Below, one piece after another: positions 2,153 to 23,130 of a stretch of DNA of 40,151 nucleotides. This DNA is from a virus: positions 1-40,151 of IMG/VR virus record IMGVR_UViG_3300027821_000012; one strand, given 5' to 3'. The position numbers and the translations under genes are program-made. The notes below the pieces were generated by a model. That model searched no databases, had not been told where the DNA came from, and saw only the letters and a list, made by a program, of their open reading frames with translations. Position 1 is the first letter of the stretch; every line of letters starts with the position of its first letter.

Positions 2153-3340
2153 CTAAAAGTGGGCTAGAGAAGAAACGTCGAATTTTGAGGGTTGAAAATT
2201 CTCTTTGGCGACTAGAGACCTTCGAATCGCCCTATCCACGCCACTTTTGGACCGGAGCTCGAAATAATTCAGATCCGTAAAAGGCGTGTCCATCCGGTCA
2301 ATTCTGCCATGAGCCTGATGCCACATCTTATATGAGTACGTATATGAGTAGAAAAGTGAGGTATCTGTGGTAGTGCAATTCCACCCCTCAGACCCCGCTA
2401 CGTACTGCACAAAATAAAGCCAGTTTTCAGAAGTGGGCAGAAGTTCGTGCTTCCAACCATTCCATTCTGCGGTCTCGACATCCGCGTTCAGACGCCTCAA
2501 AATGTCGAGTTCGTAGTTGAAATTGTAGAAGATCACCATCTTCGGATGACGCCCGAGCAATCCCTCGATCTTCTTCGATCTCGATGGGTCACTATTGACC
2601 ACTCTACGCATCACTCCGAAGAGCTCTGCGATATCTTTGATGGGACGATTCTCATAGATATGCCAGCGATTCTTGAGTACATGCTGAACGAGCTCCTCGT
2701 TGTGCTCCACAGCCAACGTCACGTAGTGTTTGATCGTCTCGCTGGAGTACCGCATATGAACGAGAATACTGTCTCTTATCTTGTTCAGACGCCTTTCACC
2801 GATATAGCCGATGACCTTGGGAAACTTTGTGTGGGGCGCATAGCGCACGTGCTCGAGTTTGAATTGAGTCCTGTTAGCGTAGAACCCGTTGGCGATGAAA
2901 ACTGGGATATAGTCGAGCCATGTGTCTCCTGGGGTAGCGGACAACATGATCCAGTAGTTCTGACGAGCAATCTTGAGAAACGACCTTACCCACTTTCCAC
3001 TACCCACCAGCCGTTGTTCGTCGAAGATGAAGAAAGCACCATGAACGCCCGTGTACTTCTCGATGTTGTTCCAGCTGTCAACAGTGAGAACTCCATGAAC
3101 AGTGGCGTTCGGAGCGTTACCGACACCGATACGAGCGAAGTCGGTTTGCCAATCGATGCTGTCTCTCTTCTTCGCTGTGGTGATGACGAAGACGTCTCGC
3201 TCTTTGTGCTCGCGTTTGTAATAGGCCACAGCCACACGCGACTTACCAGAGCCAACTCCACCCCACAGGATGTTTCCGTTATCGAGCTGCTTTAGAGCGG
3301 CTTCTTGATGTGGTCTGAGGTCTAGCAACGTTCTCCTCAA
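2153..3340 (-). CDS. SF2 DNA helicase (DEAD/SNF2-like ATPase)
   Basis: About 390 residues. Superfamily 2 helicase motifs appear in order: a Q-motif-like RPHQEAALKQL, Walker A GGVGSGKS (residues ~27-34), Walker B FFIFDEQR (~104), motif III LSATPGD (~134), then a second RecA-like domain with MVIFYNF, YVAGSEGWNC and motif VI QAHGRIDR (~340). It should use ATP to move on DNA during phage replication or recombination. The start is uncertain: TTG at 3340 overlaps the upstream stop, while TTG at 3328 has GAGGAG just before it. From memory, very similar helicases accompany PolB and SSB-like genes in gut siphophages, so it is probably part of this replisome although encoded 5 kb away from the polymerase. 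Confidence 0.9.
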   Translation of the reverse strand: MRRTLLDLRPHQEAALKQLDNGNILWGGVGSGKSRVAVAYYKREHKERDVFVITTAKKRDSIDWQTDFARIGVGNAPNATVHGVLTVDSWNNIEKYTGVHGAFFIFDEQRLVGSGKWVRSFLKIARQNYWIMLSATPGDTWLDYIPVFIANGFYANRTQFKLEHVRYAPHTKFPKVIGYIGERRLNKIRDSILVHMRYSSETIKHYVTLAVEHNEELVQHVLKNRWHIYENRPIKDIAELFGVMRRVVNSDPSRSKKIEGLLGRHPKMVIFYNFNYELDILRRLNADVETAEWNGWKHELLPTSENWLYFVQYVAGSEGWNCTTTDTSLFYSYTYSYKMWHQAHGRIDRMDTPFTDLNYFELRSKSGVDRAIRRSLVAKENFQPSKFDVSSLAHF

Positions 3341-5062: not shown

Positions 5063-5091
5063 ACTATACCCCATGTTTTATTCGCGACTAG
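5061..5091 (-). promoter_or_regulatory. Repeated promoter element
   Basis: Minus strand TCGCGAATAAAACATGGGG then -10 TATAGT (5063-5068). Copy of the consensus repeat; the -35 position (CTAGTC) is weak. It would drive the operon from 4999 to about 2153. Confidence 0.6.
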
Positions 5092-13144: not shown

Positions 13145-14053
13145 CTAGATCTTGTCGTAGATTGGACCGTCGACGTTGAAATCGAGCAGGATTGCACCTT
13201 CACGACCGTTCACAAAGTCGCGAACAACCTGCGTATCACCACGAAAAACGCCGAAGTCGATGAAGTTGTCACCCGTGTGAGTCGGATCGTTCGGACGCCA
13301 GAGCCATCCGACCACCTGACCAGCTTTGGTTCGAGGAATATCGAGCATGTCGTAGACCTCGTTTAGAAACACGTGCCCGCGAGATCGAAGTGTGTCGTTC
13401 GCCCAATTCTGCTGCGACTGAATGAAGAACATGTTGAGTTCGGGATCCTTGCTGAACGGTCGACATGCCTCGTCGAAGAACTTGGCGTAGATGGATTCTC
13501 CGTTCGGACCCACACGCTCGACGGTCTTCTTGCGACCCGTCTCCGGGTTGACGATCTCGACCTTCTCCGATCCATAACGAAGACGTCGATCTTCGTCTTC
13601 ACCGTACTTTTCGACGACACGCGCTCTGTACTCCTTGAATCCCCTGTCGAGAGCCGTGTACGCCGCGGACAGAGCTGCTGCTCGCTGTACGTGAATGCGA
13701 TTCGACGTTGCGATCAGAGCAAGACCGAAAGCGCCCGCAAGGATTGACGGTGCGTAGAGCCTGAGTGTCGCGACCGTGGACCTGTAGTAGATGATCGCGA
13801 TGTCACGTTGCCGATCCTGCTCGGTGTACTCGGTGTCCTCCATGTCTTTCGCGACCTCGAAGGCCTGATGCGCCTTCGAAATATCGTGCTTGGCCTTTCC
13901 CAAGACCTCGTCCATCTTGAGTGTGGCTCGACACGCCAGAACGGTGCTCCCCACCATGCTGACGGCCCCCGCAACAAGAAGAACTTCGGGGGAATTCTTC
14001 TGTGCGAGTGGAGAAGTGATCACTTTTCCAATCGCATCGGGAAGGAATCTCAT
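13145..14053 (-). CDS. DUF6353-type membrane protein, copy 1
   Basis: 302 residues, AGGAGG before the ATG at 14053. Two hydrophobic segments, PEVLLVAGAVSMVGSTVLAC (~22-41) and LYAPSILAGAFGLALIATS (~97-115), flank a charged helix (KMDEVLGKAKHDISKAHQ). After them come a helical RAAALSAAYTALDRGFKEYR and a long soluble C-terminal domain with NMFFIQSQQNWANDTLRSRG and VFLNEVYDMLDIP. Organisation matches the second gene at 16122-16922, so they are paralogs. The family name is from memory; function is unknown. Both lie in the membrane cluster just ahead of the replisome gene. Confidence 0.7.
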   Translation of the reverse strand: MRFLPDAIGKVITSPLAQKNSPEVLLVAGAVSMVGSTVLACRATLKMDEVLGKAKHDISKAHQAFEVAKDMEDTEYTEQDRQRDIAIIYYRSTVATLRLYAPSILAGAFGLALIATSNRIHVQRAAALSAAYTALDRGFKEYRARVVEKYGEDEDRRLRYGSEKVEIVNPETGRKKTVERVGPNGESIYAKFFDEACRPFSKDPELNMFFIQSQQNWANDTLRSRGHVFLNEVYDMLDIPRTKAGQVVGWLWRPNDPTHTGDNFIDFGVFRGDTQVVRDFVNGREGAILLDFNVDGPIYDKI

Positions 14054-15312: not shown

Positions 15313-15347
15313 CATTCCATTATAGGGCGAGTTTTACTCGCGACTAC
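15313..15347 (-). promoter_or_regulatory. Repeated promoter element
   Basis: Minus strand TCGCGAGTAAAACTCGCCC then -10 TATAAT (15319-15324). The stop codon region of the upstream 180-aa gene abuts it. Confidence 0.65.
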
Positions 15348-15886
15348 TCATCGATCACGACCTCGCCGGCTCCGAGCTGACGTCCAAGCTCTTCCAACTC
15401 TTCCGCGGGCGTCTTGAGAAACTCTTCCCGCGAAATATGACGTGGCTCTGGCTTTGGCACCTCCCTGAGCGTTGGTTCTTCTTCCTTCTTTTCTGCTGTT
15501 ACGAGTCCAGCCTGGCGAATTGCGTCTTCGGTTACTTCTCCAGGCACGACTCCACGCACAAACTCGATCTGAGCTTCTGTGCTGAAGATGAGCTCCATGA
15601 AAAATGCCGAATATGCCTCGCTTGCAAGAAACTCTTGACGAATCTCGTCGGTCTTGATGAACCGCCCACCTTCGCGAATTCCGTATGCCGAACTGACGAT
15701 GCGCTCAAATATCGCCATGATCTCTTTACCGTCTTGTGTCACGCCGAGACGTTTCAGAGATTCACTGAGACCACCGTGCTCACTGACCTCGAGTTTGACG
15801 ATTTCGGCCTGAGTCAGGTGGAAGTAAATATCCTCCACCACCTGATCACCGTCGAAGTTTGTGTACGTGACCGTTTTTTTGAGCAC
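15344..15886 (-). CDS. Conserved phage protein, 180 aa
   Basis: GTG start at 15886 with AAGGATAACTAC upstream. MLKKTVTYTNFDGDQVVEDI opens a domain continuing FHLTQAEIVKLEVSEHGG, IMAIFERIVSSAYGI, GRFIKTDEIRQEF and AYSAFFMELIFS. A less conserved charged tail follows (EKKEEEPTLREVPKPEP, then EELGRQLGAGEVV). I recall this N-terminal pattern (YTxFxGxxxxExFYFxLTxAE) from siphophage genomes, where some copies are annotated as tail-assembly proteins. Its position here among membrane genes, far from the tail block, leaves the role open. Confidence 0.6.
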   Translation of the reverse strand: MLKKTVTYTNFDGDQVVEDIYFHLTQAEIVKLEVSEHGGLSESLKRLGVTQDGKEIMAIFERIVSSAYGIREGGRFIKTDEIRQEFLASEAYSAFFMELIFSTEAQIEFVRGVVPGEVTEDAIRQAGLVTAEKKEEEPTLREVPKPEPRHISREEFLKTPAEELEELGRQLGAGEVVIDE

Positions 15887-16121: not shown

Positions 16122-16922
16122 TCACTCGTACATGCTCTCGTAACCCGTCTTCGGCATGGGATCGAAGTCGATCGCGATGCAAGGGCGTCCATCTGTGGAC
16201 ATCGTGGTCGAGTATTGCACGTTGAGTGGAAGATCCATGCACCACCCAACCGAGTCCGTGAACGTAGTTGCTCCGAGCCCCACGATCTCGAAGAACTCGG
16301 AGAGACTCGCATGGGATCGGTGAAGAAGCTGATGGTTGATGTCGTTCTCGGCCCCACGAAGCTTCTCCATCGAACTGGTGAAATATCGCCCCGTGAGGTT
16401 GTCGTAGCAGAGAACGTCTCCCGCACCAGTCATGATGACCTGGCTCCCCTCCACGGGATTCTTGTTAACACGATCCTGCGCGATCTCGTCTCGAACTTCC
16501 TCGGCCTTCTTCTCGCCGAGCTTCTGTGTGATCTTGTCCTTGTACTCCTGGAACGCTCTCTCCGTAACCGCCGAAGACATCGTCAAAGCCGCGATCTTCT
16601 TCGCATCGACACGATGTGCCACAACGATCGACGCGATCGTCACGAGTCCAGATGTGACCGCCGGCAAATATAGCGGCCAGACAGCTTTGACCTTCTCTTT
16701 AGTCGTTAGGTAAACCGGATCTTTGGTTTGATCTGGACCACCCGTATTAGCAATAACCGTTGCTTCTTCGATGACCTCTGCCGCCTTGAACGATGCCTTA
16801 CCCGTCAAGACTGCAGTTGTGACCGTTCCGACAACCCCCATCGCGGTGAGGATCGTCGTGGAGTTCTCGTTCACGAGGTACTTCATCTTGTTGGCGTGTG
16901 GCGCCAAGCTTTGAAGGATCAT
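16122..16922 (-). CDS. DUF6353-type membrane protein, copy 2
   Basis: 266 residues, AAAGGGACTC before the ATG at 16922. Two hydrophobic segments, STTILTAMGVVGTVTTAVLT (~22-41) and YLPAVTSGLVTIASIVVAH (~86-104), separated by a charged segment; then IAALTMSSAVTERAFQEYKD and a soluble domain with MTGAGDVLCYDNLTGRYF and LSEFFEIVGLGA. Shared features with the 302-aa copy: N-terminal ILTAxGxVG-type helix, second helix ending in a His/Arg-containing segment, AALxxAxxxxxxxFxEYxxR/K, and a soluble C-terminal domain of similar order. It likely acts at the membrane; possible hetero-oligomer with copy 1. Confidence 0.75.
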   Translation of the reverse strand: MILQSLAPHANKMKYLVNENSTTILTAMGVVGTVTTAVLTGKASFKAAEVIEEATVIANTGGPDQTKDPVYLTTKEKVKAVWPLYLPAVTSGLVTIASIVVAHRVDAKKIAALTMSSAVTERAFQEYKDKITQKLGEKKAEEVRDEIAQDRVNKNPVEGSQVIMTGAGDVLCYDNLTGRYFTSSMEKLRGAENDINHQLLHRSHASLSEFFEIVGLGATTFTDSVGWCMDLPLNVQYSTTMSTDGRPCIAIDFDPMPKTGYESMYE

Positions 16923-17093: not shown

Positions 17094-17160
17094 AAAAAAG
17101 AATAGGCGAGGTTAACAGCATGGATAGCTGACAGGGTTCCTCAATTGGAACCTCTCCTCA
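17094..17160 (-). ncRNA. Structured leader / attenuator before the replication-side operon
   Basis: Starts just after a TATAAT promoter. Outer stem AGGAGAGGTT (17149-17158) with AACCTCGCCT (17104-17113, one mismatch), hairpin TTCC-AATTGA-GGAA and hairpin CAGC-TATCCAT-GCTG (17117-17131), ending in ATTCTTTTTTT and then the Shine-Dalgarno of the next gene. Terminator-like structure inside a 5' leader, so expression of the genes below may depend on readthrough. Confidence 0.55.
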
Positions 17161-17190
17161 TTATAATGCATGTTTTCTCCGCGAGGTCAA
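17156..17190 (-). promoter_or_regulatory. Repeated promoter element
   Basis: -10 TATAAT (17160-17165), CGCGGAGAAAACATGC upstream, and a TTGACC at 17185-17190 as alternative -35 at 19-base spacing. Likely main promoter for the operon from 17076 downward. Confidence 0.65.
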
Positions 17191-18049: not shown

Positions 18050-18080
18050 ATTAGAGGGCATGTTTTCTCTGCGAGAGAAA
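18047..18080 (-). promoter_or_regulatory. Repeated promoter element (unit B)
   Basis: -10 TCTAAT (18050-18055) preceded by CGCAGAGAAAACATGCCC; -35 region weak. Confidence 0.5.
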
Positions 18081-19033: not shown

Positions 19034-19142
19034 TTCCCCTGCGCAAGGGCGAACGATTTGTCCTTGACAAGTGCGCACCGTCAAGGTTTGTCGTTCCATA
19101 GAGTTTTTTGATCGGAGTGATCGGCGACTAGATTCACAAAAC
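19034..19142 (-). other. Region between two small genes, no repeated promoter
   Basis: Contains the possible N-terminal extension of the preceding entry (to 19099). A TTGACG lies at about 19079-19084, but I see no convincing -10 17 bases downstream. It begins with the U-tract of the terminator of the 40-aa gene. Confidence 0.3.
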
Positions 19143-19171
19143 GAAAAAAAGTTGCGGCTTGTTAGGCCACA
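19143..19171 (-). terminator. Intrinsic terminator of the 40-aa gene
   Basis: GTTGTGGC-CTAACAA-GCCGCAAC then TTTTTTT; the stop codon lies in the loop. Confidence 0.75.
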
Positions 19172-19284
19172 ACCTTTGTCGGGTTCAACAGTCCGTTGGC
19201 GGACAGGTGCTCGATCGTCTGAAGCCGGATCTTCTGGTCGTAGTTGTTCTTGACCTTCTTGATCTGCTTGATCGGGTTGAGCAT
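19162..19284 (-). CDS. Small basic protein, 40 aa
   Basis: MLNPIKQIKKVKNNYDQKIR then LQTIEHLSANGLLNPTKVVA. ATG at 19284 follows AAGGAGACAAA. Amphipathic, basic, helical. Has its own promoter (19309-19343) and terminator. Function unknown. Confidence 0.65.
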   Translation of the reverse strand: MLNPIKQIKKVKNNYDQKIRLQTIEHLSANGLLNPTKVVA

Positions 19285-19308
19285 TTTGTCTCCTTCATAA
19301 GTTGTTTA

Positions 19309-19343
19309 CCTTTCACTATATGCCCTGTTTTTTTCGCGAACAA
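19309..19343 (-). promoter_or_regulatory. Repeated promoter element
   Basis: TTGTTC (19338-19343), 17-base spacer GCGAAAAAAACAGGGCA, -10 TATAGT (19315-19320). One of the best copies. Confidence 0.7.
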
Positions 19344-19462
19344 AAAAAGATGAAGAGATCCTAGAGCCTAATATTAAGATCTCGTCTAAACGTATCGTTC
19401 ATTACTATTGTCCCATTTATTTTAATAGGTGGGAACAAGTAATATACTTGATTATTTTCTAT
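19344..19462 (-). ncRNA. AU-rich structured RNA unit G (or 13-aa leader peptide)
   Basis: Between a TATAAT promoter and the next U-tract lie about 110 bases without a normal gene. Folds: CAAGTA-TAT-TACTTG, CCCA...TGGG, and GAGATC...GATCTC before TTCATCTTTTTTT. Much richer in A and T than its surroundings. The only short frame is MNDTFRRDLNIRL with a weak GGGA 10 bases upstream. RNA is the preferred reading. Confidence 0.45.
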
Positions 19463-19489
19463 TATACTACATGTTTTACGCGCGAAAAA
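19459..19489 (-). promoter_or_regulatory. Repeated promoter element (unit G)
   Basis: TTTTTC (19484-19489), 17-base spacer, -10 TATAAT (19461-19466). Confidence 0.65.
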
Positions 19490-19517
19490 AAGAGAGTCCG
19501 TGTTTGGAATCTCTTTA
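19484..19517 (-). terminator. Intrinsic terminator of the 44-aa gene
   Basis: AAGAGATTCC-AAACA-CGGACTCTCTT with TTTTT; its U-tract forms the -35 hexamer of the unit G promoter. Confidence 0.75.
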
Positions 19518-19523
19518 AACCTG

Positions 19524-19658
19524 CTACTTGCGGTACAGCAGATAGTTGACTTCGTTGTAGGCCTCGTCGAAGCGCTCTCTGGTGAGTTCTGGATTGTGGT
19601 TCTTCAGAATATCCCAGACGCGCTCTTGACGACGGATCCTACGAATCTTCTTCAACAT
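19524..19658 (-). CDS. Small basic helical protein, 44 aa
   Basis: MLKKIRRIRRQERVWDILKN HNPELT..., ending NEVNYLLYRK. ATG at 19658 follows AAGGAGAGCAATC. Very basic N-terminus; probably nucleic-acid or membrane-surface binding. Own promoter and terminator. Function unknown. Confidence 0.65.
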   Translation of the reverse strand: MLKKIRRIRRQERVWDILKNHNPELTRERFDEAYNEVNYLLYRK

Positions 19659-19683
19659 GATTGCTCTCCTTGATAGATTTAGG

Positions 19684-19716
19684 TTTCATTATACACCCTG
19701 TTTTTCTCGCGAAAAA
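19684..19716 (-). promoter_or_regulatory. Repeated promoter element
   Basis: TTTTTC (19711-19716), 17-base spacer, -10 TATAAT (19688-19693). Confidence 0.7.
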
Positions 19717-19746
19717 GAAGAAGCCCTGTTAGGCTTCCTCTTCTGT
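19711..19746 (-). terminator. Intrinsic terminator overlapping the 71-aa gene end
   Basis: GAAGAGGAAGCC-TAACA-GGGCTTCTTC then TTTTTC; the last codons and stop of the gene form the upstream arm. Confidence 0.7.
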
Positions 19747-19944
19747 TTCTACCGTGATTCCGAGTTGCGCGAGTGCGATCTTGTCGAATTCATCGATCTC
19801 GACCTTGCCGTCGTTGATCATGCCGACCATGTACGCAGCAACCTCGTTGGTGTTGTTGACCTTACGAGACTTTCTTTGTGCATGGATCTTCATTCCAACG
19901 GTCACGGCGGTCATGACGATGAATCGAACCATAGCGGGGTTCAT
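19729..19944 (-). CDS. Small membrane-anchored protein, 71 aa
   Basis: MNPAMVRFIVMTAVTVGMKI as one N-terminal transmembrane helix, basic HAQRKSRKVN, then helical AAYMVGMINDGKVEIDEFDK and IALAQLGITV with an acidic end. AAGGAGTTTGC precedes the ATG at 19944. Same plan and C-terminal EFDxIALxxLG motif as the gene at 17207-17449. Function unknown. Confidence 0.65.
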   Translation of the reverse strand: MNPAMVRFIVMTAVTVGMKIHAQRKSRKVNNTNEVAAYMVGMINDGKVEIDEFDKIALAQLGITVETEEEA

Positions 19945-19963
19945 GCAAACTCCTTCTTAGTAG

Positions 19964-19996
19964 TTTCACTATACCCCCTGTTTTCCACGCGAAAAA
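19964..19996 (-). promoter_or_regulatory. Repeated promoter element
   Basis: TTTTTC (19991-19996), spacer 17, -10 TATAGT (19968-19973). Confidence 0.7.
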
Positions 19997-20023
19997 AAGA
20001 GAATCCGTGTTGGACCCTCTTTC
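19991..20023 (-). terminator. Intrinsic terminator of the 125-aa gene
   Basis: AAGAGGGTCC-AACA-CGGATTCTCTT then TTTTTC, 10 paired positions including G-U. Confidence 0.75.
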
Positions 20024-20031
20024 TTCGTGAA

Positions 20032-20409
20032 CTATGCAGCGGCCAGCGCCACGCGCTCGTACACTTCACCGCCAGCGTTGGGAAGCATTCCGTTCAAATG
20101 CTTGGACATGTGAACTGGATCGATGCCATTAGCTGCAGCTGCTTGCGCTTGTGACAAGAAAAGCTCACCCGTTGTCTTGTTACGAACAACCCAACTCGGC
20201 GGACCCTTACGAAACACTTCGATGACTTGCCAGACGTTGTTGGTAGTCGGAGAGTTGATCTGAAGCTTGTATGCGTCCACGATCTGGATGCTTCCACCCA
20301 TACCATAGAATGTCCCGACAACCGTGATCGCGCCGAGAATAACGCCGCCCGTACCCACGAGATAATACTTCTTGTTCTCGCGGAAATGACCTTTGATACG
20401 ATCGAACAT
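20032..20409 (-). CDS. Membrane-anchored HTH protein, paralog, 125 aa
   Basis: AAAGGAGCTCTT before the ATG at 20409. Basic N-terminus MFDRIKGHFRENKKYYL, transmembrane helix VGTGGVILGAITVVGTFYG (~18-36), linker with SPTTNN, then VVRNKTTGELFLSQAQAAAA and NGIDPVHMSKHLNG. The final motif is the same NUMOD1-like helix-turn-helix as in the gene at 18193-18630. It follows the twin-hairpin RNA unit D, as the other copy precedes units A-C, so these proteins and the RNAs may be connected (inference). Confidence 0.7.
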   Translation of the reverse strand: MFDRIKGHFRENKKYYLVGTGGVILGAITVVGTFYGMGGSIQIVDAYKLQINSPTTNNVWQVIEVFRKGPPSWVVRNKTTGELFLSQAQAAAANGIDPVHMSKHLNGMLPNAGGEVYERVALAAA

Positions 20410-20424
20410 AAGAGCTCCTTTCAG

Positions 20425-20515
20425 AGCATAGAAAACAAAAAGAGAGTGACTCGATCGAGCATAACAAGATCGATTCAACGATGTAGTCGAGCATGACAAG
20501 ACTACATCTCTCTCA
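20425..20515 (-). ncRNA. Twin-hairpin small RNA, unit D
   Basis: Between promoter and the 125-aa gene. Outer stem GAGAGA with TCTCTT near 20441-20447, then TTTTTGTTTTC. Hairpin 1: GATGTAGTC (20500-20508) with GACTACATC (20480-20488), 9 perfect pairs, loop TTGTCATGCTC. Hairpin 2: TCGATC/GATCGA (20451-20473), loop TTGTTATGCTC. Stems differ completely while the 11-base loops differ at one position, so the loop is what is conserved. Confidence 0.7.
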
Positions 20516-20543
20516 TAATGCCCTATGTTTTTTTCGCGAACAA
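20513..20543 (-). promoter_or_regulatory. Repeated promoter element (unit D)
   Basis: TTGTTC (20538-20543), 17-base spacer, -10 CATTAT (20515-20520), a weaker -10 than in other copies. Confidence 0.55.
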
Positions 20544-20577
20544 AAAAAGAGAGTCAGTATTTCGACTCCCTTTTCGA
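20541..20577 (-). terminator. Intrinsic terminator of the 53-aa gene
   Basis: AAAGGGAGTCGAAATACTGACTCTCTTT followed by TTTG; strong stem and U-tract. Confidence 0.75.
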
Positions 20578-20583
20578 AGGGTA

Positions 20584-20745
20584 TTACCGACGAGCATCCT
20601 TCATGGAACGGCGTGAGACCTCGCGCGACCAGGCCATCGAGTTCATGATCTTCGCGGCGCCGGTGAGCACTGCTGCTGCGACACCGAGAGCGATGATGGG
20701 GTTCTCTTCTGCTTGGCGCTTGAGATTCTCCAGAAACTTTTCCAT
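20584..20745 (-). CDS. Small membrane protein, 53 aa
   Basis: MEKFLENLKRQAEENPIIAL, then GVAAAVLTGAAKIMNSMAWS and a basic C-terminus REVSRRSMKDARR. AAGGATTACTCC precedes the ATG at 20745. One Ala/Gly-rich transmembrane helix. Resembles short membrane proteins of other actinophages (recollection). Function unknown. Confidence 0.65.
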   Translation of the reverse strand: MEKFLENLKRQAEENPIIALGVAAAVLTGAAKIMNSMAWSREVSRRSMKDARR

Positions 20746-20773
20746 GGAGTAATCCTTTCTTGGTAGGGTTACC

Positions 20774-20806
20774 TTTCACTATAGGGAGTGAAAATATCGC
20801 GAAAAA
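20774..20806 (-). promoter_or_regulatory. Repeated promoter element
   Basis: TTTTTC (20801-20806), spacer 17 containing GCGATATTTTCACTCCC, -10 TATAGT (20778-20783). Confidence 0.65.
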
Positions 20807-20837
20807 AGAAAGCCGATGTTTAGGCTTCCCTTTTTGA
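20801..20837 (-). terminator. Intrinsic terminator of the 59-aa gene
   Basis: GGGAAGCC-TAAACAT-CGGCTTTC then TTTTTTC. Confidence 0.65.
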
Positions 20838-20840
20838 AAT

Positions 20841-21020
20841 CTACTTTCCGTACTTCTGCTTTTTCGCTTCTTTGGCGGCGTTCTTGATCTGTTCGGCTTT
20901 CTCGATGATCATGTCGAAGTCTTCTTCCGTAAGCTCTTGCTTAGCGTTGAAGTTTCTCAATTCACTATCGAATGACAGTCCAGGGCGAAGAAGGTCTACC
21001 ATATGCGCGTGTCTTTGCAT
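20841..21020 (-). CDS. Small charged helical protein, 59 aa
   Basis: MQRHAHMVDLLRPGLSFDSE, then LRNFNAKQELTEEDFDMIIE and a Lys/Ala-rich helix KAEQIKNAAKEAKKQKYGK. AAGGAGATCGCT precedes the ATG at 21020, so this start is chosen over the ATG at 21044. Soluble, helical. Own promoter and terminator. Function unknown. Confidence 0.65.
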   Translation of the reverse strand: MQRHAHMVDLLRPGLSFDSELRNFNAKQELTEEDFDMIIEKAEQIKNAAKEAKKQKYGK

Positions 21021-21039
21021 AGCGATCTCCTTAAGTAGT

Positions 21040-21071
21040 TTCACTATAGGGAGTGAAAATATCGCGACTAG
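21040..21071 (-). promoter_or_regulatory. Repeated promoter element
   Basis: -10 TATAGT (21043-21048) preceded by TCGCGATATTTTCACTCCC; overlaps the 3' end of the 69-aa gene. -35 region CTAGTC is weak. Confidence 0.6.
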
Positions 21072-21277
21072 AGGATGGTTACTGGGGCGAAGATCGTGAT
21101 CGGCGGATGACTGACAACGTTCTCCTCAGGAAGGCTCCCCATGTTGTACTGCCCTGGCTCCATATCCGTGTTCACGAAGAAATAGAACTCGCCGTGAATA
21201 TATGGGAGAGAACGGCCGTGAATGAACTCACAGAACGGAAGCGTTTCAGGAGTGACCTTGATGGCGTATTTAGGCAC
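21068..21277 (-). CDS. Hypothetical soluble protein, 69 aa
   Basis: GTG start at 21277 with AAAGGAG 9 bases upstream. MPKYAIKVTPETLPFCEFIH, then GEFYFFVNTDMEPGQYNMG and a hydrophobic C-terminus TIFAPVTIL. Beta-rich. Has a similar look to the 71-aa protein at 22439-22654 (MIRKYAIALEEKNLELIQ..., YFVFYAGPMM), so the two may be related. Function unknown. Confidence 0.6.
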   Translation of the reverse strand: MPKYAIKVTPETLPFCEFIHGRSLPYIHGEFYFFVNTDMEPGQYNMGSLPEENVVSHPPITIFAPVTIL

Positions 21278-21319
21278 GAGTACTTCTCCTTTACGAAGTA
21301 ATATCTGCGACTTGGGAGG

Positions 21320-21355
21320 AAATTACCCCCCGGGGTTTTTTCGGTCGCGAAAAAA
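21320..21355 (-). promoter_or_regulatory. Degenerate promoter element
   Basis: Minus strand TTTTTCGCGACCGAAAAAACCCCGG region then TAATTT (21320-21325). Keeps the U-tract and TCGCGA but has an altered, GC-rich spacer. Possible weaker promoter for the 69-aa gene. Confidence 0.35.
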
Positions 21356-21447
21356 AAGAGAATGTCTGCTGGTATGGTTTTCTGTCCCAGGTCAACTAGC
21401 CACACTACATCCCGGACTCGCAAGTACGGGAGCATGGCTCCATTCTC
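21349..21447 (-). ncRNA. Structured small RNA, unit F
   Basis: Closed by GAGAATG (21441-21447) with CATTCTC (21358-21364), then TTTTTTTT. Inside: GGAGC-CAT-GCTCC and CCCG...CGGG hairpins, and a stretch (GGGATGTAGTGTGGCTAGTTG) that superficially resembles a tRNA D-arm. No twin repeats and no reading frame of note. Lies between two promoters. Confidence 0.55.
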
Positions 21448-21476
21448 ACTATATACCCTGTTTTTTTCGCGAACAA
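21445..21476 (-). promoter_or_regulatory. Repeated promoter element (unit F)
   Basis: TTGTTC (21471-21476), spacer 17, -10 TATAGT (21448-21453). Confidence 0.7.
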
Positions 21477-21572
21477 AAAAGAGAAGGAGGACACTGGTGT
21501 AGCTCGATCCTTATAGCCGTGACGCGATTAGCCTTTGACATTACTGTCTCCGGTACCACGGCTTCCTTCTCC
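21474..21572 (-). ncRNA. Structured small RNA, unit E
   Basis: Outer stem GAGAAGGA (21564-21571) with TCCTTCTC (21481-21488), then TTTTTTG. Second stem AGCCGTG (21557-21563) with CACGGCT (21515-21521), enclosing GACA-GTAA-TGTC (21537-21548), a GNRA-type tetraloop. The 3' part holds CTACACCAGTG, similar to TACACCAGG at the 3' side of units B and C. Looks like a stable nested RNA of about 95 nt with its own promoter and terminator. Confidence 0.6.
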
Positions 21573-21601
21573 ATTATACACCTTGTTTTTTTCGCGAACA
21601 A
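21571..21601 (-). promoter_or_regulatory. Repeated promoter element (unit E)
   Basis: TTGTTC (21596-21601), spacer 17, -10 TATAAT (21573-21578). Confidence 0.7.
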
Positions 21602-21632
21602 AAAAGAGAAGCCGGGTTTCGACTCCTCTTTC
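21599..21632 (-). terminator. Intrinsic terminator of the 61-aa gene
   Basis: AAAGAGGAGTCG-AAAC-CCGGCTTCTCTTT then TTG; some mismatches but a clear U-tract. Confidence 0.65.
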
Positions 21633-21637
21633 GGGAA

Positions 21638-21823
21638 CTACGCGACGGGCTGGTTCTGCCACTCCTCGAACAGTCCCTTCTCCTGAAGGAAGGTCTCCAT
21701 GTCGTTGACGGTCAGAAGCGCGCCGTACGCGACGACGACCAGTGTGGTCGTGCCGGCGATGACGATGTACTTCTTGGCGTTCCGACGGAGATGCCTTCCA
21801 ACCTTGTTGGGGAAGTCCTTCAT
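21638..21823 (-). CDS. Small membrane protein, 61 aa
   Basis: MKDFPNKVGRHLRRNAKKYI, then VIAGTTTLVVVAYGALLTV as one transmembrane helix, and an acidic C-terminus NDMETFLQEKGLFEEWQNQ. AAAGGATTTCCC precedes the ATG at 21823. The basic-helix then TM opening resembles the HTH proteins at 18193 and 20032 but without the HTH domain. Confidence 0.65.
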   Translation of the reverse strand: MKDFPNKVGRHLRRNAKKYIVIAGTTTLVVVAYGALLTVNDMETFLQEKGLFEEWQNQPVA

Positions 21824-21844
21824 GGGAAATCCTTTCGTTAGTAG

Positions 21845-21877
21845 TTTCACTATACACCTTGTTTTTCTCGCGAAAAA
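21845..21877 (-). promoter_or_regulatory. Repeated promoter element
   Basis: TTTTTC (21872-21877), spacer 17, -10 TATAGT (21849-21854). Confidence 0.7.
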
Positions 21878-21926
21878 AAATGGGAAAGGTTTAGAAAAAG
21901 GAAATCCCCTTATGGGGTTCCTTTTC
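21873..21926 (-). terminator. Intrinsic terminator of the 29-aa gene
   Basis: AAAAGGAA-CCCC-ATAA-GGGG-A-TTTCCTTTT, a long near-perfect stem, with TTTTTTTT further down. Confidence 0.75.
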
Positions 21927-22015
21927 TAGATCAGGCCAGGTAGGGCGTCTGAAAGTCCAACATACACTGACGTTTGCTGGACGCGAATCCAGACGGTAAG
22001 CATAGTTACGAACAT
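21926..22015 (-). CDS. Microprotein, 29 aa
   Basis: MFVTMLTVWIRVQQTSVYVG LSDALPGLI. The ATG at 22015 follows AAGGAGACATCAAA, and the frame has its own promoter and terminator, which argues it is real. Amphipathic, possibly membrane-associated. Confidence 0.6.
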   Translation of the reverse strand: MFVTMLTVWIRVQQTSVYVGLSDALPGLI

Positions 22016-22042
22016 TTTGATGTCTCCTTAAATTGGTTTGAT

Positions 22043-22075
22043 CTTCACTATACTCCCTGTTTTTTTCGCGAAAAA
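22043..22075 (-). promoter_or_regulatory. Repeated promoter element
   Basis: TTTTTC (22070-22075), spacer 17, -10 TATAGT (22047-22052). Confidence 0.7.
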
Positions 22076-22101
22076 AAGAGAATCCGTGTTGGATCCTCTT
22101 C
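22070..22101 (-). terminator. Intrinsic terminator of the 77-aa gene
   Basis: AAGAGGATCC-AACA-CGGATTCTCTT then TTTTT; nearly the same sequence as the terminator at 19991-20023. Confidence 0.75.
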
Positions 22102-22112
22102 TTGAAGCTGAA

Positions 22113-22346
22113 CTACTTCGAGCGTGGAGTGCTGATGGCAATCACAGGCTCAAATTCTTCACGGGGAACGTTATGTCTCTCGAGTACACGGACCAGTTCA
22201 TCAATCTGGATTTCCTTGACTTTCATCTGAATCTCGTGACTGTCACACAGTCTACGAAATCCTTTCTTCAAGTTCCAGGTCAGATGAAGACCGTATAGCT
22301 CGCGAATAATCACGATTCCCGCAAGAGCTTGAGTTCGATTGAACAT
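22113..22346 (-). CDS. Hypothetical protein, 77 aa
   Basis: MFNRTQALAGIVIIRELYGL has a modest hydrophobic N-terminus; then basic LTWNLKKGFRRLCDSHE and a C-terminal VKEIQIDELVRVLERHNV, EEFEPVIAI. The end loosely matches the EFDxIAL motif of the two small anchored proteins. AAAGGAGG precedes the ATG at 22346. Function unknown. Confidence 0.6.
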   Translation of the reverse strand: MFNRTQALAGIVIIRELYGLHLTWNLKKGFRRLCDSHEIQMKVKEIQIDELVRVLERHNVPREEFEPVIAISTPRSK

Positions 22347-22372
22347 TACACCTCCTTTCGAGATAGTTTACC

Positions 22373-22405
22373 TTTCATTATACGCCCTGTTTTATGTGCG
22401 AAAAA
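22373..22405 (-). promoter_or_regulatory. Repeated promoter element
   Basis: TTTTTC (22400-22405), spacer 17 (GCACATAAAACAGGGCG), -10 TATAAT (22377-22382). TCGCGA is TCGCAC here. Confidence 0.65.
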
Positions 22406-22432
22406 AGAGAATCCGTATTAGGGACTCTCTTT
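22400..22432 (-). terminator. Intrinsic terminator of the 71-aa gene
   Basis: AAAGAGAGTCCC-TAATA-CGGATTCTCTTT with following TTTC. Confidence 0.7.
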
Positions 22433-22438
22433 ACGTTA

Positions 22439-22654
22439 TTACAATAGGAAGGTGATGTTTTCCCTAGCATAACCGTACTCATCGTAGAGATCGTTTTCGG
22501 TGATGATCATAGGACTTTGAACTTCGGTCATCATCGGTCCAGCGTAGAAGACGAAATACATTCCATCTTTTGGCTCGACCGGGACGGCCTTGTTCAAGAC
22601 TTGGATCAACTCCAAATTTTTCTCTTCGAGAGCAATGGCATATTTGCGAATCAT
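22439..22654 (-). CDS. Hypothetical soluble protein, 71 aa
   Basis: MIRKYAIALEEKNLELIQVL, then DGMYFVFYAGPMMTEVQSPM and a Tyr-rich C-terminus NDLYDEYGYARENITFLL. AAAGGAATGC precedes the ATG at 22654. Small alpha/beta protein with own promoter and terminator. Function unknown. Confidence 0.65.
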   Translation of the reverse strand: MIRKYAIALEEKNLELIQVLNKAVPVEPKDGMYFVFYAGPMMTEVQSPMIITENDLYDEYGYARENITFLL

Positions 22655-22670
22655 GCATTCCTTTCGTAGT

Positions 22671-22703
22671 TTTCACTATAAGCCCTGTTTTACGTGCGAA
22701 AAA
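22671..22703 (-). promoter_or_regulatory. Repeated promoter element
   Basis: TTTTTC (22698-22703), spacer 17, -10 TATAGT (22675-22680). TCGCAC variant. Confidence 0.65.
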
Positions 22704-22737
22704 AATAGGAAAGGCCGCTTTCGCGGCCCCGCCTATT
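22698..22737 (-). terminator. Intrinsic terminator of the 105-aa gene
   Basis: AATAGGCGGGGCCGC-GAAA-GCGGCCTTTCCTATT then TTTTT. The strongest terminator of the window, GNRA-type loop. Confidence 0.85.
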
Positions 22738-22760
22738 CGACTCTTCTTGGGCTGTTGTTT

Positions 22761-23078
22761 CTAACGCAACCGACCCACGAAGCCTAGTGCCTTCGAGGTT
22801 ACTGGATGAGCCCACTCGTGCTTGAGGATCATCGCGATACCCACAAGGTTCGCGCCTGCGCCGACCAACGCATCCTTACTCACGGACGATGACTTTCGGT
22901 TGTTTGTTCTTTCCTGTTTCATCATCATCTCGTGCAGTCTTTCGATGTTGGCCAGCACGGTGCTGTATTCCTTGGTGTTCGGCTGATAACCGCTCAAGCT
23001 AGCGATGGCGAGCTCGAGTTCTTTCTCCAGAAGGCTCTGGTAGTACTTCGGTGGTTCGGGATTTTTCGTCCAAAACAT
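22761..23078 (-). CDS. Hypothetical protein, 105 aa, one C-terminal membrane segment
   Basis: AAAGGAGCGTCA before the ATG at 23078. MFWTKNPEPPKYYQSLLEKE then helical LASLSGYQPNTKEYSTVLAN-type region (heptads around YSTVLANIERLHEMM), basic linker, VGAGANLVGIAMILKHEW as a hydrophobic segment and the end SKALGFVGRLR. I recall the ending xVxTSKALxFVxxxR from other actinophages. Helical, probably membrane-associated. Function unknown. Confidence 0.65.
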   Translation of the reverse strand: MFWTKNPEPPKYYQSLLEKELELAIASLSGYQPNTKEYSTVLANIERLHEMMMKQERTNNRKSSSVSKDALVGAGANLVGIAMILKHEWAHPVTSKALGFVGRLR

Positions 23079-23097
23079 TGACGCTCCTTTAGTTGAG

Positions 23098-23130
23098 TCC
23101 CATTATAGGCCAAGTTTCACTCGCGATCGG
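23098..23130 (-). promoter_or_regulatory. Repeated promoter element, first of the small-gene region
   Basis: -10 TATAAT (23102-23107) preceded by TCGCGAGTGAAACTTGGCC; -35 hexamer weak. It overlaps the stop of the upstream membrane protein. Confidence 0.6.

Follow-up and report, generated by a model that had tools for sequence, protein, structure and literature searches.

A 40,151-base stretch of viral DNA (IMG/VR record IMGVR_UViG_3300027821_000012; hereafter the window) carries on its minus strand, between 19 and 23 kb, an array of small genes separated by short composite elements in which an intrinsic terminator runs directly into a candidate promoter. The window is a fragment of a soil-phage record with 51% GC, and its minus strand also encodes a head protease, portal, tape measure, primase-polymerase and helicase. 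Its proteins and gene order agree with those of Arthrobacter phages Inked and Qui and Streptomyces phage Scarif. The siphovirus-like tape measure and head protease, together with the occurrence in actinophages of relatives of the polymerase considered below, indicate that it is not a T4-like myovirus. The array, all of whose features lie on the minus strand, has one small open reading frame (ORF) per coding unit (22761-23078, 22439-22654, 22113-22346, 21926-22015, 21638-21823, 21068-21277, 20841-21020, 20584-20745, 20032-20409, 19729-19944, 19524-19658 and 19162-19284, spanning 19162 to 23078). A Pfam scan of five of these ORFs gave no match, and Rfam and tRNA scans of the array region returned only a chance-level radC match.

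The array opens with a stand-alone promoter motif (TCGCGAGTGAAACTTGGCCTATAAT, 23102-23126) that has no terminator ahead of it. Terminator hairpins followed by the motif were then found at 22737-22704 (-22.1 kcal/mol; a T-run, then motif 22699-22675), 22430-22406 (-11.3; motif 22401-22377), 22100-22076 (-12.4; motif 22071-22047), 21922-21899 (-10.7; a 25-base gap with a second T-run, then motif 21873-21849), 21631-21603 (-15.0; motif 21597-21573), 20830-20807 (-10.0; motif 20802-20778), 20574-20545 (-13.5; motif 20539-20515, with the variant box CATTAT), 20021-19997 (-11.9; motif 19992-19968), 19740-19717 (-14.2; motif 19712-19688), 19515-19490 (-9.3; motif 19485-19461) and 19383-19355 (-8.3; motif 19339-19315). 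Two hairpins, that at 19740-19717 and the array's last terminator (19177-19147), contain in their loop the TAA stop codon of the gene that they end; no promoter follows the last one. When the 75 nt upstream of each motif were searched, 11 of 18 tested sites had a T-rich tail behind a hairpin at least as stable as -8 kcal/mol, and the stem at these 11 usually ended 4-5 bases ahead of the motif's first element, TCGC. By comparison, 10 of 150 random positions reached -6 together with a T tail. The elements thus consist of a GC-containing hairpin and then a U-tract, as intrinsic terminators do, and the hairpins abut the motif, bearing out an original prediction, made from the letters alone, that terminator and promoter form one fused element of about 60 bases. 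The same prediction had singled out the terminators at 19991-20023 and 22070-22101 as nearly identical, and 30 of their 32 positions are equal after a one-base shift. A palindrome at 22055-22080 (TTTTTTTCGCGAAAAAAA) is formed by the T-run, TCGCGA and an A-tract and is probably a by-product of the fusion.

TATA(A/G)T boxes are strongly biased in the window (19 on the minus strand vs 2 on the plus strand), and there are 19 motif sites when variants are included. The array is not limited to 19 to 23 kb: further sites lie on the minus strand at 18055, 17933, 17165, 15324 and 5068. The hexamer TTTTTC or TTGTTC, said to stand 17 bases ahead of the box in twelve or more copies, does so in exactly 12 (TTTTTC 8, TTGTTC 4), with 7 other hexamers at the remaining sites. 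In an ungapped alignment of the window sites on the TATA box, however, the invariant upstream bases were not those of the T-rich hexamer: they were TCGC at -19 to -16 and C at -7, with a tract of A or T before CA. The conserved unit is TCGC-N8-CA-N5-TATA(A/G)TG, in which TCGC lies exactly 19 bases ahead of the hexamer. Its strict form, TCGC-N8-CA-N5-TATARTG, occurs 14 times on the minus strand of the window, never on the plus strand and never in the reversed control, against a chance expectation of about 0.001 per strand. TCGC is also kept at five sites that have neither terminator nor T-run, namely 23107 (the array's first motif), 21048 (21043-21067), 17165 (17160-17184), 15324 (15319-15343) and 5068 (5063-5087). 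At two of these (21060-21070 and 15340-15346) the TAG stop of the preceding ORF (21068-21277 and 15344-15886, respectively) directly abuts TCGC, and the promoter therefore appears to need nothing conserved upstream of TCGC.

The strict motif was counted in related phages as well: 23 copies in Qui, 10 in Inked, 9 in Scarif, 14 in ReqiPepy6 and 7 in Chikenjars, in each case on one strand only and with none in the reversed control. To avoid circularity, sites were also picked solely by a TATA(A/G)TG(A/G) box. TCGC was then present at -19 at 16 of 17 sites in the window, 11/12 in Inked, 23/28 in Qui, 9/9 in Scarif, 14/14 in ReqiPepy6 and 7/7 in Chikenjars, while the T-rich hexamer was present at 10/17, 4/12, 15/28, 0/9, 1/14 and 1/7, respectively. 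No TTGA-type -35 was found on the coding strand at any box-picked site of the window or these five phages. In a profile of 449 sites, in which TCGC, CA and TATARTG are fixed by site selection, the information content is 0.05-0.25 bit at each of the four positions where the proposed -35 hexamer overlaps the U-tract, and no T-run is nearby at 235 of the 449 sites. The U-tract therefore abuts the promoter in this phage and is not its recognition element. The proposal that the U-tract end doubles as a -35 box was rejected, since the T-run varies across phages and stand-alone sites and TCGC is constant; the suggested comparison with relatives showed that T-rich hexamers are frequent in only some phages and that TCGC is kept. 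Judged by these alignments, conservation does not extend to the U-tract. Lacking a TTGACA box, these minus-strand promoters were all missed by a generic sigma-70 scan, and no TTGACA-like -35 at the 16-18 spacing of a host sigma-A promoter was present.

The motif appears to belong to phages. A 15-base version matched over 118 stretches in contigs of viruses; with its spacing altered by one base, the number was 8. Bacterial and archaeal genomes totalling 257 Gb contained 88 matching stretches, which is chance level, with no actinobacterial enrichment, and a host motif was rejected on these grounds. All 50 of 50 phage contigs carried it on a single strand (control, 0). One bacterial metagenome-assembled genome (MAG) record, G061, has a contig with six motifs and the polymerase described below, a combination that would fit phage DNA within the bin. 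Motif clusters were seen on two bacterial-binned contigs, L179 (CANRPE010000009.1) and L178 (Saccharibacteria MAG CAMYWN010000004.1); the polymerase is encoded on L179 and not in the genome of L178, and both contigs may be phage or mis-binned. No description of the motif itself was found in the open-licence literature.

Several units have no ORF and are predicted to encode structured non-coding RNAs (ncRNAs). In the first (21572-21480) the 5' end, GGAGAAGGA, pairs with TCCTTCTC ahead of the next T-run, and a promoter motif (21472-21448) is fused onto its 3' end. The second (21447-21358) has a GAGAATG:CATTCTC pairing ahead of its T-run (z -2.8), and the third (20514-20438) has a closing stem and two hairpins with the common loop CTTGTYATGCTCG. 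Below 19 kb, motif 18074-18050 (box TCTAAT) precedes an ncRNA at 18049-17964 with the duplicated loop CGTAATTTGCTCGG (z -4.3), and motif 17952-17928 precedes one at 17927-17857 with the duplicated hairpin GCGCTGCTTTGCAGTAC (z -4.2). The 5' ends of these units pair with bases just ahead of the U-tract. Among 554 sites, a 7-base pairing that starts at the base directly after the box was found 35 times vs 4.2 with shuffled leaders, and 19 of 34 helices of at least 9 bp start at that base. Because the pairing begins there, we infer that transcription starts (+1) at the final G of TATA(A/G)TG; with a sigma-type start 6-8 bases downstream, the paired 5' bases would fall outside the RNA. The hexamer is therefore probably not a sigma -10, as which it had first been read.

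An internal direct repeat of at least 12 nt was present in 9 of 52 non-coding units vs 0.6 by shuffles. Two or three same-sequence hairpins within one closing stem were seen in the window at 20514-20438, 18049-17964 and 17927-17857, and in other phages at L223:2586, L223:41749, L043:4025, L043:4261, L071:1787 and L089:958. Such repeated-hairpin ncRNAs could act as multivalent decoys or sponges. In related phages tRNA-like units also occur between promoters and terminators of this kind (L257:5192, L026:4584, L056:2923 and L258 near 4600).

The units were compared with those of a relative, G002, whose identity to the window is 80.7% along the 17.5 kb that lead to the array. For seven unit bodies the G002 array has same-order counterparts, that of 19320 being weak, and the gene sequence of unit 21854 is kept with a different terminator. 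The ncRNA of unit 20520 (20514-20438) is homologous to G002 L225:197-121, which lies at another array position; a compensatory change was observed in its first hairpin stem. The ORFs and ncRNAs of units 22680, 22382, 21578, 21453, 21048, 19693 and 19466 have no G002 counterpart, and two units, at 3064 and 2662, are peculiar to G002. The simplest reading of this comparison is that whole units have been gained or lost with breaks in the terminator-promoter. The units gained or lost whole, the ncRNA unit found elsewhere and the near-identical terminators all agree with the proposal that the small genes behave as cassettes.

A candidate for the enzyme that reads the motif is the protein family phrog_4291. 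It is encoded, nearly always at full length, in 41 of 50 motif contigs or phages of at least 30 kb, and in 0 of 8 spacing-control contigs, several of which are short (Fisher p about 1e-5). Among further actinophages with this gene, 6 of 7 carry 2-14 motifs and the seventh, Eevee, carries a variant. Lactococcus phage P078, which has the gene, repeats the variant TTTTACATACCCTATAATG, in which the WWWWACA element is kept and the TCGC part is changed; the oral phage D_HF4_2 has a CGCA...TATAATGAGAA variant. The unrelated phages phiC31, ArV2, GTE2 and R4 have 0 motifs, and the polymerase was not among the matches listed for them, no profile search having been run there. The gene is not within the 40-kb fragment, which ends before the place that it would have, and is present in L006, Inked, Qui and Scarif. 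L006 has cassette and helicase DNA in common with the window; since it encodes the polymerase, the window phage very likely carries the gene too, beyond the left end.

Members of phrog_4291 share an invariant LSGADFDGD, which provides the DxDxD of the active site. Of 10 members, 9 matched Sigma70_r4_2 and 9 weakly matched RNA-dependent RNA polymerase (RdRP) families. Near both ends of the protein lie helix-turn-helix matches, those of the sigma-region-4 type among them. An AlphaFold2 model of the L006 member, itself a prediction with a pLDDT of 67, has the two-barrel fold in one chain and resembles QDE-1 (Foldseek E 2.4e-6, prob 1.00; VIA Z 10.6) and P74-26 gp62 (8f5m; Z 10.5). The polymerase of the crAss-like phage phi14:2 was not among the structural matches listed, and a sequence-profile search of solved structures matched only helix-turn-helix proteins and unrelated chains. 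phrog_4291 is predicted to combine in one chain a two-barrel RNA polymerase of QDE-1-like fold with sigma-region-4-like helix-turn-helix domains.

What the sequences establish is the motif with its exact spacing, the use of one strand, and the link to phages with phrog_4291. We consider it reasonably probable that the motifs are promoters specific to this phage polymerase, placed directly behind intrinsic terminators. A unit would consist of the preceding gene's hairpin and U-tract, then TCGC(A/G)-N3-WWWW-ACA-N5-TATA(A/G)T, a +1 G (in GAGA or GAAA), a short leader that includes a ribosome site, and finally either a single small ORF or a structured ncRNA. The phage's own single-chain two-barrel enzyme would read the promoter, its fused helix-turn-helix domains contacting the TCGC and/or the WWWWACA segment, and DNA would melt at TATA(A/G)T, at -6 to -1. 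The U-tract would solely end the preceding transcript, so that units would be insulated and could be gained or lost whole.

Several points weigh against this reading. All the evidence is computational, and a perfect TATAAT would suit a host sigma factor too. The start site rests on RNA pairing, and the L006 model is of moderate quality (pLDDT 67, pTM 0.41). Nine motif contigs do not encode phrog_4291, these being 31-46 kb pieces that may be cut, and FP_oengus has the polymerase and lacks the motif; a de novo search of FP_oengus gave no clear promoter motif. The co-occurrence of motif and polymerase follows the shared descent of the phage group and need not be causal. Another conserved gene could supply specificity, as an alternative or a partner. 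One such gene is phrog_4303, a small protein gene that follows the polymerase gene in 5 of 5 phages checked, which infect Actinobacteria, Lactococcus and Faecalibacterium (L222:29531-29800, L224:46849-47103, L247:49104-49334, L249:36303-36536 and L248:22992-23261).

Instead, a MotA-like phage protein bound to TCGC near -30 might redirect the host's RNA polymerase and main sigma factor, TATAAT then being a true -10. TCGC would sit at -31 to -28 were TATAAT at -12 to -7, and the middle promoters of T4 are built alike, with an excellent -10, no -35 and a phage element near -30 (PMC2988021). The closing stems of the ncRNAs, however, start at the base after the hexamer, upstream of any sigma-type start, and WWWWACA is kept in Lactococcus phage P078, whose TCGC part changed. 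No MotA- or AsiA-like gene was found among the scanned proteins, no search having been aimed at them, and we regard this explanation as unlikely, if still a serious one.

Ordinary host sigma promoters that use the U-tract end as -35 box, the model of the original prediction, would account for TTTTTC or TTGTTC 17 bases ahead of the box at 12 of the 19 window sites. They would not account for the loss of T-richness at most sites in other phages and at the window's stand-alone sites, where TCGC stays, for the lack of any TTGA-type -35 at coding-strand sites or for a motif at chance level in bacterial genomes, which makes them improbable. The conserved block could also be a repressor site of the operator or stoperator type repeated behind each gene, and not a promoter. 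The stoperators of mycobacteriophage L5 are likewise in one orientation, intergenic and repeated. Almost every array copy, however, has a TATA box and a downstream start codon, and the ncRNA units begin exactly at the block's end; we consider a repressor site very improbable. Polymerase-specific phage promoters remain the reading that we favor.

Similar arrangements and enzymes have been described elsewhere. The PeSLs of T4-like phages are composite promoter-terminator cassettes (Arbiol 2010 and Comeau 2014, as cited in PMC4503421). PeSLs resemble the window elements in joining a stem-loop and a promoter in a short repeated cassette between small genes and in gene shuffling. They differ in belonging to T4-like myoviruses and in having a host-type early promoter, whereas the window is from a siphovirus-like actinophage with a TCGC/ACA/TATARTG motif that serves ncRNAs as well. 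The window thus has the stem-loop and promoter cassette and the shuffled units, and neither a sigma-70-type early promoter nor a T4-like genome; PeSL membership is not claimed for its cassettes. Halovirus HF2, an archaeal virus, likewise has repeated intergenic promoter elements (PMC8707807). Its repeats are not known to have fused bacterial-type terminators.

YonO of Bacillus phage SPbeta is also a single-chain two-barrel phage RNA polymerase, with a promoter and helper factors stated as still to be determined (PMC5467207). It differs from phrog_4291 in serving one late operon, vs many candidate promoters and helix-turn-helix matches near both ends. No WWWAC(A/T)-N5-TATA(A/G)T was found in SPbeta in the region upstream of yonK from which YonO transcribes, a region searched without an exact coordinate for the start. 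The non-virion polymerases P23-45 gp64 and P74-26 gp62 are likewise single-subunit two-barrel enzymes with their own promoter motifs (PMC10770324; 8f5m), but they are smaller proteins from Thermus phages, and the profile search detected no sequence relation to phrog_4291. Late promoters of phiKZ have TATG, in which G is the start, and AR9 promoters have AACA-N6-T(A/G) with the start at the end (PMC5312081). Both share with the motif a start-proximal TA box, and AR9 shares the upstream AACA, but their enzymes are multi-subunit, and the promoters have no TCGC element and other spacing (PMC5312081). T4 middle promoters also have a phage element in place of the -35 above a good TATAAT; the polymerase and the inferred start position differ (PMC2988021). 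Apart from the array, a pair of DUF6353 (PF19880) paralogues was observed in the window at 13145-14053 and 16122-16922, and the genes are paralogous in Inked and Qui too.

More broadly, and with somewhat greater reserve, we lean towards the view that the motif represents a promoter class of widespread phage two-barrel polymerases with sigma-like helix-turn-helix domains. Such promoters would have TCGC, an AT-rich ACA, a start-proximal TATA(A/G)T and a +1 G, and would be deployed as terminator-promoter cassettes carrying single small proteins, tRNA-like RNAs or closed duplicated-loop ncRNAs. For the little-understood question of how single-chain two-barrel phage polymerases find their promoters, the motif supplies hundreds of exactly spaced candidates and a prediction of the start base, and phrog_4291 is a candidate enzyme that brings DNA-binding domains of its own; all of these are open to test in phages cultured on Arthrobacter, Streptomyces and Gordonia. 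The cassettes further indicate that modular gene gain of the PeSL kind occurs beyond the T4-like phages, and they bring to light predicted phage ncRNAs that are apparently undescribed.

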